Below, piece after piece: positions 24,181-26,309 of a stretch of 37,019 bases of DNA. Origin of the DNA: Erythrobacter sp. (lineage in GTDB: Bacteria > Pseudomonadota > Alphaproteobacteria > Sphingomonadales > Sphingomonadaceae); contig JASJDE010000006.1 of the NCBI GenBank assembly GCA_030065195.1, forward strand, positions 1 to 37,019. Direction: 5' to 3'. Below the pieces are notes generated by a model. That model saw nothing but the letters and a program-made list of their open reading frames with translations. It was not told the DNA's origin and searched no databases. Each line of letters starts with the position of its first letter. Position 1 is the first letter of the stretch. Both the position numbers and the translations under genes were made by a program.

Positions 24181-25158
24181 GTGACATCATCAGGTATCAG
24201 TCACTCGGATTCCGAGACGACTTTTCGCGAGAATTCTAGCCCGTTCGGCTTGGGCGTCCTGTCCAATTGGAAACTGGTTCGTGAGGCGCGCGAAGAGACT
24301 TCGCGGCGCAACCGCCGTCTTCCAGTCGTCGAAAATCCGACGGTTTACCCATCGAGCATCATTGCTATCGAAGGAATGTATTTCATCTCCTTCGACAACG
24401 TCGCACGGTTCGAGATCTGCTTCCATGAAGAGGTCGTGACCATCTTCGACGTCGCTCCGGAAACGACACCCGAAGCGCTCACACATCTTCTCTACGACCA
24501 TGTCGCGCCGCGCATTCTGGCCGGAATCGGACAGCTTGTCATTCATGCCAGCGCGGTCGAAATCGGAGGCCGATTGGCACTCTTTCTCGGGGAAACCGGA
24601 GCGGGAAAATCCACCCTCGCCGCGAGCCTGCACAAATCAGGCCACCGCTTGATGGGAGACGACGCCTCCATAGTTGCGCCGTCGACAAAGGGCTTCGTGG
24701 GGCAGGCGGTCTACCCGAGCCTGCGACTCTATCAAAAATCGATCTCCGCCGTCCTTGGCGCCAACATTCCGTCGGCGCCTATGGCACACTATTCGGAGAA
24801 GAAGCGCCTCAACCTACCGAGCCTCGCCGAAACCGAGACAGAGCCCGTTCCCTTAGGAGCATTCTTCTTCCTCGTTGACGAAGCAAGCAAGGGCAGCGTC
24901 GCATCGCATCCTCTCAGTCCCGGGCTGACGTGCATCGGTTTGATCGAAAACAGCTTCGCGCTGGATCCCTCCGACGCGACTTCGGCCGCAAACAGGATGG
25001 AGCAAGCGTCCGCGGTCGCCCGCGCAGTGCCTGGATACGAACTTTCCTATCCTTGGGATTTCGATTTGCTCCCACGGGTACACGAACAGGTGTTTTCCTG
25101 TATGCGAGCCGCTGCCGGTCTCGATGCCGATAGTCCAGCGGGGAGTTCGACACTATGA
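24181..25158 (+). CDS. HprK-like serine/threonine kinase (lasso K-type)
   Basis: Walker A LFLGETGAGKSTLAASLHKSGHRLMGDDASIV matches the HprK-related kinase P-loop plus HxLxxDD motif. Located between precursor 2 and the methyltransferase. Confidence 0.88.
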   Translation: MTSSGISHSDSETTFRENSSPFGLGVLSNWKLVREAREETSRRNRRLPVVENPTVYPSSIIAIEGMYFISFDNVARFEICFHEEVVTIFDVAPETTPEALTHLLYDHVAPRILAGIGQLVIHASAVEIGGRLALFLGETGAGKSTLAASLHKSGHRLMGDDASIVAPSTKGFVGQAVYPSLRLYQKSISAVLGANIPSAPMAHYSEKKRLNLPSLAETETEPVPLGAFFFLVDEASKGSVASHPLSPGLTCIGLIENSFALDPSDATSAANRMEQASAVARAVPGYELSYPWDFDLLPRVHEQVFSCMRAAAGLDADSPAGSSTL

Positions 25159-26309
25159 GCGTTCCATCCGGATACAGTATCGCCGACTATGGCGACATGG
25201 TCGATTGCGAACCCCGGATGTCGACCTATGCCGAAGCCCTGAAACGCGCAGTCACTCCTGACTGTAGCGTAATCGACATCGGTGCAGGGTTTGGGATTTT
25301 CGCGCTCCTCGCCTGCCAATACGGCGCAGGCTCGGTCGTCGCTATCGAAACAGACAGCAGTATCGAACTCTTGCGGGAGCTGGCGAAAGCAAATGGATGT
25401 GCGGATCGGATCACCATAGTCCGCGATCTTTCCACCAGTTTCGAACCGGAATCCAAGGCGGACGTCGTCATCTCCGATCTGAGAGGTACGATGCCTCTGT
25501 TCGAAAGTCATATCGCCGCAATAGTCGATGCGCGCTCTCGATTGCTTGCAGATGGCGGCAAGCTCCTGCCGATGCGCGATATCCTCCGGGTAGCACTGGC
25601 GCGCTCGCCAAAGACCTACCAATCGGCGCACTCGCCGTGGACCTCGAATCGGTTCGGCCTCGATCTTTCGGCTGGCCAACGGTTTGCGGTGAATGACAGC
25701 ACCAAGGTCTACCTCAAGCCCAGCGCCCTGCTATCTCCAGCACAGGACCTGGAGGTCTTGGACTACCGGACGATCGTTGATCCCCATATCGACAGCAGCG
25801 TCGAACTGACCGCGGATCGAACCAACACCGCACATGGATTGCTGATCTGGTTCGATGCGGAGATTGCCGAGGGGCTCACCTATTCCAACGCACCAGATGC
25901 TCCCAGCCTCGTTTACGGGCAAATGTTCCTGCCATTCTCCAAGCCCGTGAGGGTGGAGCCTGGCGACACGGTGACCGCACGAATCCGTGCGAGGTTGCTC
26001 GATCATGACTATATCTGGTCGTGGGATTGCGATGTGAACGATCGCACGAACGGAGAGCAGAGGTTGTCATTTCGCCAATCCACCTTCCTGCGCAAAGTTG
26101 TCCCACCGGCAGCCTTGAAGAGTGGTTCCAACCACTTCGTACCGGAAAGAAGCGATCTGATGACGATTGACCGGGATTGCCTCGATCTGGTGGACAATGG
26201 ACGCTCCAACGGGGAAATCGCTGAGATCATTCTGGATCGGTACGCTGATCGGTTCTCAGACTTTCAACAGGCGCTAGACCATGTCTCCAATCTTTTGCGA
26301 CGATATTGA
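25155..26309 (+). CDS. PRMT-like SAM-dependent methyltransferase with C-terminal PqqD-like segment
   Basis: SAM motif I VIDIGAGFGIFALLACQYGAGSVVAIETD, double-E-loop-like SDLRGTMPLFESHIAAIVDARSRLLADGGKLLP, N-terminal YSIADYGDMVDCEPRMSTYAEAL. C-terminus RDCLDLVDNGRSNGEIAEIILDRYADRFSDFQQALDHVSNLL resembles the helical half of PqqD. Start overlaps the kinase stop (ATGA). Confidence 0.85.
   Translation: MSVPSGYSIADYGDMVDCEPRMSTYAEALKRAVTPDCSVIDIGAGFGIFALLACQYGAGSVVAIETDSSIELLRELAKANGCADRITIVRDLSTSFEPESKADVVISDLRGTMPLFESHIAAIVDARSRLLADGGKLLPMRDILRVALARSPKTYQSAHSPWTSNRFGLDLSAGQRFAVNDSTKVYLKPSALLSPAQDLEVLDYRTIVDPHIDSSVELTADRTNTAHGLLIWFDAEIAEGLTYSNAPDAPSLVYGQMFLPFSKPVRVEPGDTVTARIRARLLDHDYIWSWDCDVNDRTNGEQRLSFRQSTFLRKVVPPAALKSGSNHFVPERSDLMTIDRDCLDLVDNGRSNGEIAEIILDRYADRFSDFQQALDHVSNLLRRY

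Follow-up and report, generated by a model that had tools for sequence, protein, structure and literature searches.

A PRMT-fold methyltransferase that may S-methylate core methionine in sphingomonad lasso peptides

A kinase-type lasso-peptide cluster with a methyltransferase gene

The window analysed here is a stretch of 37,019 nucleotides of Erythrobacter sp. (contig JASJDE010000006.1), from a genome of 3.2 Mb that is 87% complete; Erythrobacter was also found among the near relatives of the methyltransferase described below. A complete kinase-type lasso-peptide cluster lies on the + strand of the window (18788-27202) and encloses the methyltransferase gene (Table 1). The components that define such a cluster were all found, namely a precursor with a lasso leader and a ring acid, B1, B2, C, D, and K. 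B2 (NF033537) and PqqD scored above the profile cut-off, and the cyclase C scored 486 against a cut-off of 525. The paeninodin cluster and the Bradymonas bsf cluster (PMC10368454) likewise consist of the precursor, C, K, B1, B2, D, and N, and the leader motif YxxPxL and a core Ser3 as in BsfA are also shared, whereas a PRMT-fold methyltransferase is not described there. BsfK acts on Ser3 of BsfA (PMC10368454), and by this analogy the target of the kinase K is probably core Ser3 (PMC10368454, PMC9266682).

Table 1 Features of the lasso-peptide cluster in the window.
Feature	Position	Strand	Remark
NTP_transf_5 nucleotidyltransferase-like protein (N)	18788..20110	+	Start codon uncertain; as in kinase-type lasso clusters
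ABC exporter D	20112..21779	+	
Lasso cyclase C (AsnB-like)	21796..23691	+	Start placed at MSGICGI within a longer ORF
Lasso precursor 1: leader MSDRIAKKPYRQPVLSIFGAFSRLTA, predicted core GGSGLQTESGANMNPNRRP	23703..23840	+	Sub-cut-off lasso_leader_L3; ring to Glu8, Met13
Codon of precursor 1 core Met13, candidate methylation site	23817..23819	+	
Lasso precursor 2: leader MTDRIDSKPYSSPKLVTYGAFSQLTA, predicted core AGSGPLFETGPGMMGTKRRP	24026..24166	+	Sub-cut-off lasso_leader_L3; ring to Glu8, Met13-Met14
Codons of precursor 2 core Met13 and Met14, candidate methylation sites	24140..24145	+	
HPr-kinase-like peptide kinase K	24181..25158	+	His-Lys-Asp-Asp set retained
PRMT-fold class I SAM methyltransferase, 384 aa; proposed peptide-Met S-methyltransferase	25155..26309	+	
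Asp108 codon, place of PRMT1 Glu144 (first double-E Glu)	25476..25478	+	
Glu117 codon, place of PRMT1 Glu153	25503..25505	+	Variable among relatives
Tyr254 codon, place of THW Trp	25914..25916	+	
C-terminal three-helix tail, residues 334-383	26154..26303	+	Common to both lasso-linked enzyme clades
B1, PqqD-type leader-binding protein	26394..26675	+	
B2, transglutaminase-like leader peptidase	26726..27202	+	

The ring and the cleavage site of the precursors were predicted from the motif only. Both precursors terminate in RRP; the tail MNPNRRP of precursor 1 and the MM pair of precursor 2 are kept in L020, L044, and L046. The start codon of the methyltransferase gene overlaps the stop codon of the kinase gene (ATGA), so that translation of the methyltransferase is probably coupled. 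A perfect 12-bp hairpin, followed by a weak T-containing stretch, was observed between the two precursor genes (23914-23945) and is perhaps an attenuator or an mRNA stabiliser.

Fold, active site, and tail of the methyltransferase

In the first-pass annotation, the protein had been read as a PRMT-style enzyme with a motif-I loop and a PqqD-like tail, which would methylate arginine at the RRP ends of the two precursors. The PRMT-style layout was borne out by sequence and by structure prediction. Residues 22-276 matched solved structures of the PRMT1 type in a sequence comparison with the PDB (yeast Hmt1/PRMT1, E = 1.4e-23), and the protein scored above the cut-off of the PRMT_C profile. The AlphaFold2 model (mean pLDDT 92, pTM 0.83), obtained with an input alignment of 54 sequences, contained a Rossmann SAM domain and the PRMT beta-barrel, and its top Foldseek matches were all PRMTs, including PRMT1, PRMT2, PRMT8, and Hmt1 (E 3.7e-26, TM by target about 0.8-0.88, with 0.84-0.88 for PRMT1). 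The motif-I loop is present as had been claimed. The enzyme thus resembles PRMT1/Hmt1-type PRMTs in having motif I and a Rossmann SAM domain followed by a beta-barrel, as well as the invariant Arg in the N-terminal helix and the Gly in the double-E loop.

The Pfam matches of the methyltransferase were of the PrmA/PRMT type and included no O-methyltransferase family, indicating that the StspM-type domain is absent; there was no PCMT match either, which sets the enzyme apart from the PIMT-like LihM. StspM and LasF (PMC9266682) are also methyltransferases that tailor the precursor in lasso clusters, whereas they differ from the window enzyme in fold group and active site (StspM His242/Glu296), in their carboxylate target, and in having no Met link. 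The expectation of a tailoring route unlike that of StspM agrees with the finding of a PRMT-fold methyltransferase within a lasso cluster. LihM and TceM, which act in the formation of lihuanodin and cellulonodin-2 (PMC13352647, PMC9266682), also tailor lasso peptides, but they are PIMT homologues that turn an Asp in the ring into an aspartimide after the lasso has folded, whereas clade A cores (defined below) contain no Asp.

In PRMT1, E144 and E153 neutralise the guanidinium group, and the THW loop has a part in shaping how arginine is recognised (PMC8619983). These positions were compared in clade A (the window enzyme and its close relatives, 132 proteins) and in clade B (a second lasso-linked clade, 49 proteins), which share about 25-30% identity with each other. 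The first double-E position is Asp in all 132 clade A and all 49 clade B proteins. At the second position, Glu (69), Gln (54), Asp (5), Gly (3), and Ala (1) were found in the 132 clade A proteins, and clade B has Tyr throughout (49/49). The Trp of the THW loop is replaced by Tyr throughout clade A (132/132), where the equivalent loop of the window enzyme reads LVYGQ, and by Arg throughout clade B (49/49). A double-E-like loop with Asp for the first Glu had been noted earlier; the Asp was confirmed, but not a conserved double-E-like site with the two guanidinium-holding Glu residues. Stand-alone bacterial PRMT-like proteins of the same bacterial family retain Glu/Glu/Trp and, consequently, among the compared proteins the arginine grip was lost only in the lasso-linked enzymes. 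In contrast to PRMT1/Hmt1, the window enzyme belongs to a lineage with fixed changes that involve both double-E positions and the THW Trp, carries an additional C-terminal three-helix tail, and is encoded beside a lasso precursor, which in many members contains no Arg.

The last ~45 residues had been likened to the helical half of PqqD and regarded as the enzyme's own degenerate recognition domain. The tails of clades A and B are homologous (97% probability in a profile comparison). In the AlphaFold2 model, however, the tail consists of three helices and has no beta-sheet, whereas the PqqD/RRE fold comprises a three-stranded beta-sheet and three helices and binds the leader at the sheet. Comparison with the lasso B1 and PqqD profiles gave probabilities of 9% and 4% (hhalign), and the lasso RRE protein TbiB1 (5v1u), although the second-best structural match to the tail, had a non-significant E value of 3.3. 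A PqqD fusion serving as a leader-binding RRE was set aside in view of the missing sheet and the lack of a profile match; what is left of the earlier reading is a suggestive resemblance among helices, and the modelled tail may possibly correspond, weakly, to the helical half of PqqD.

Core methionine co-evolves with the enzyme

The lasso clusters with this type of kinase (about 80) were taken from the genus and the family as well as from two other genera. Since only 5 matches came from a homology search of precursors against the protein library, the precursors were read from the DNA, and the clusters were grouped into 54 enzyme-positive ones and 27 without an intact enzyme. Met was present in the core in 53/54 of the former versus 2/27 of the latter. 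By clade, it was found in 12/13 (A) and 41/41 (B) of the enzyme-positive clusters, and in 0/2 (A-like) and 2/25 (B) of the enzyme-negative ones. In the 12 Met-bearing clade A clusters, every precursor found contained Met. A scan of the neighbouring genes indicated that the methyltransferase gene was the best separator of the two sets.

Clade B provides a natural experiment, in which close clusters with and without the enzyme differ in Met versus Arg/Lys. Its leaders end in GSVRNLTGG or close variants regardless of the methyltransferase, and the enzyme-negative clusters share this leader and match the others in the rest of their genes. Core examples are GSGTMMMDGTITMVQVP, GSLGNVGDGGIMTMAM, and AMTGMGADMMAMLV with the enzyme, and GSGTRFRDGAVTNSRF, GSSGTIRDGGRSRRS, and GSSGDLGDGNVAKRGPK without it. 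The L063 core, GSGTMMMDGTITMVQVP, contains no Arg. Every unique core from clusters with the enzyme contained Met (42/42), compared with 2/25 of those lacking an intact enzyme (Fisher 6e-16), and Arg was found in 10/42 versus 21/25. The core composition with and without the enzyme was 19.0% versus 0.7% for Met and 2.4% versus 14.3% for Arg+Lys. In L217, the methyltransferase gene (6811-7677) has an in-frame deletion of about 95 residues that removes the double-E region of the enzyme, and the core (GSGGTRGDGQLGQTRL) contains Arg and lacks Met, as in a natural knock-out.

Three exceptions were observed. L169 carries a clade A enzyme that appears intact, and the precursor found, ending in QKHP, contains neither Met nor Arg; a search across the L169 genome gave no convincing second precursor. 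In the other direction, the enzyme is absent from L219, which has two Met residues in the core, and from L178, which has a ring Met. In the sampled enzyme-negative genomes, distant relatives of the enzyme were present elsewhere but no close copy.

For 75 clusters, the relation was also examined on a lasso-cyclase tree by a likelihood test of correlated evolution, in which an independent and a dependent model of two traits were compared. Met presence evolves with the enzyme (LR 34.2, p = 7e-7 in this model-based test, which rests on one short-search tree). Thirteen other residues (Arg, Lys, Leu, Phe, Val, Ile, Ala, Asn, Gln, Pro, Thr, His, and Cys) gave p > 0.2, with p = 0.22 for Arg. Enzyme status changed at least five times on supported branches and nine times on the best tree. 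Among independent pairs, Met changed in the same direction as the enzyme in 4.4 of 5 and in the opposite direction in none; because the pairs are few, the sign test gave only p = 0.06. The precursor and enzyme genes are neighbours, and joint transfer could inflate the Met link.

A gene of about 300 codons, whose product has a sub-threshold match to 2OG-Fe(II) oxygenases, was found in about half of the 41 enzyme-positive clade B clusters and in 0/25 of the others (L054:11119-12045 on the - strand, L068:5275-6216, L228:7209-8015, and others); its product possibly performs a further step on the same residue. It was the sole candidate for another gene behind the Met link and was rejected, as it occurs in only about half of the clade B positives and is absent from clade A.

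Proposed methionine S-methylation and alternative targets

From the sequence comparisons above, we consider it somewhat more probable than not that the PRMT-fold enzyme tailors its own lasso precursors, most likely by S-methylation of one or more tail Met residues to give an S-methylmethionine sulfonium. The broader proposition, that this PRMT-fold family has switched from arginine to peptidyl Met and that sulfonium Met replaces Arg/Lys in the sphingomonad lasso group, appears to us only just better than an even bet. We know of no PRMT-fold enzyme that methylates Met.

In the proposed pathway, the linear precursor would be presented via its leader by B1 and/or the three-helix tail of the enzyme. 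A methyl group would then move from SAM to the sulphur of at least one tail Met, and the resulting sulfonium would bear a fixed positive charge; the putative sites in the window would be Met13 in precursor 1 and Met13/Met14 in precursor 2. Asp108 may help to stabilise the developing cation. K would probably phosphorylate the Ser at core position 3 (position 2 in most of clade B), as BsfK does, N may add to the phospho-Ser group, and B2 and C would then form the lasso for export by D. MmtN is described as S-methylating free Met by means of proximity and desolvation, with no catalytic groups directly involved (PMC9135737), so that the loss of the PRMT glutamates would be no obstacle to Met methylation. 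A precedent for the product is longipeptin A (PMC11285071), a RiPP with an S-methylated Met13 (sulfonium) that is tentatively ascribed to LopH. Unlike the present peptides, longipeptin A is not described as a lasso peptide, and LopH possibly represents a new family. The charge is probably the reason for Met methylation, because clade B cores without the enzyme bear Arg/Lys and those with the enzyme mostly have Met instead. Met might also be kept for another reason, such as a plug or metal binding.

The target might instead be another group of the pathway, such as the Ser phosphate, a backbone amide, or a Ser, Thr, or Asn side chain, with Met being co-selected. The kinase gene in the enzyme clusters and the near-invariant Ser at core position 2-3 (position 3, or 2 in most of clade B) are consistent with such a target. 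However, the kinase, the Ser, and the nucleotidyltransferase are equally frequent without the methyltransferase and thus leave the Met link unexplained, and no other tested residue co-evolves with the enzyme; we regard this explanation as unlikely.

Methylation of the C-terminal carboxylate, as by StspM, would have a substrate in every precursor, and StspM works on linear lasso precursors (PMC9266682); the Met-rich tails would then be merely preferred or needed by such peptides. The exclusive Met link is not predicted by this explanation, and the fold of StspM, for which mitomycin 7-O-methyltransferase was the modelling template (PMC9266682), differs from that of the window enzyme. Moreover, several clade B precursors run beyond the core into a peptidase-S74-like domain, so that the core C-terminus is not free at first. 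Carboxylate methylation is hence judged decidedly unlikely. The carboxylate and the phospho-Ser are kept as rival targets only, because both leave the Met link unexplained.

The arginine methylation proposed in the first-pass annotation would require N-methylation of the C-terminal Arg of clade A cores (RRP/RRA/RKL/RP) in a modified PRMT pocket. It is in keeping with the PRMT fold, with the core Arg of 11/13 clade A clusters (nearly all at -2/-3), and with the second Glu, which is retained in the window enzyme itself. The replaced grip residues of both clades argue against it, as do the clusters that separate Arg from the enzyme. L050, whose clade A enzyme is 57% identical to that of the window, has a single precursor found, and its core (AGSQGGQENATMTGPSFMA) contains Met and no Arg; the precursor of L169 has no Arg either. 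Conversely, L221, one of the two A-like enzyme-negative clusters, keeps Arg-Arg in its end SRRLV. In clade B, 31/41 enzyme-positive clusters have no core Arg, which mostly appears where the enzyme is absent. As clade B, the L050 and L221 clusters, and the test of correlated evolution all point away from Arg, its methylation was dropped as the leading idea and is considered improbable. That the enzyme acts on a protein of the producer, in immunity or regulation, rather than on the lasso peptide is very improbable: PRMTs in general act on proteins, but the gene is closely linked to the precursor genes and overlaps the kinase gene, and the core composition changes where the enzyme is lost (L217).

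Tailoring methyltransferases of lasso peptides are known, and what is unusual here is the enzyme fold and the proposed reaction. The literature search gave no paper joining a lasso peptide with a PRMT and no lasso paper with a sulfonium; one match for 'arginine methyltransferase' concerned a ribosome-targeting agent and was discarded. If the S-methylation of Met is correct, the enzyme would be the first S-methyltransferase with a PRMT fold and its products the first lasso peptides with a sulfonium, as far as the literature examined shows, and the reaction would be one absent from the lasso reviews PMC9266682, PMC8498205, and PMC13352647. It would also mean that the PRMT scaffold is able to serve a neutral thioether in place of a charged N-nucleophile, and the family (at least 713 related proteins) would be a source of enzymes for installing a fixed-charge sulfonium on peptides.

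Several further features were observed in the sampled loci. Stand-alone bacterial PRMT-like proteins outside lasso clusters (L072, L075-L083) retain both Glu and the Trp and are possibly true bacterial PRMTs. The clade B precursors with an in-frame peptidase-S74-like (intramolecular chaperone) domain after the core, starting with SDPRAKEN, were found in L163:7404-7784 (Pfam PF13884, 4e-8), L165:9413-9790, L161:8515-8910, L211-L215, L220, L224, L226, and L229, both with and without the methyltransferase; self-cleavage may free the core C-terminus. In L115 (6105-6574), a gap of ~470 bp with no recognisable content on reading separates the precursor and kinase genes where relatives carry the methyltransferase, and the same gap occurs in most FRDG-type clusters. 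The cyclase frame of L050 (8888-11029, - strand) reads through into the precursor without a stop (677 aa from MSGI), representing either a fusion of cyclase and precursor or the loss of a stop codon. Finally, L207 (949-1360), a cluster without the methyltransferase, has two precursors with the leader end LTC and two Cys per core (GSAGRCHDVGTRTRIFNNGGGTCGG), possibly forming a disulfide lasso.
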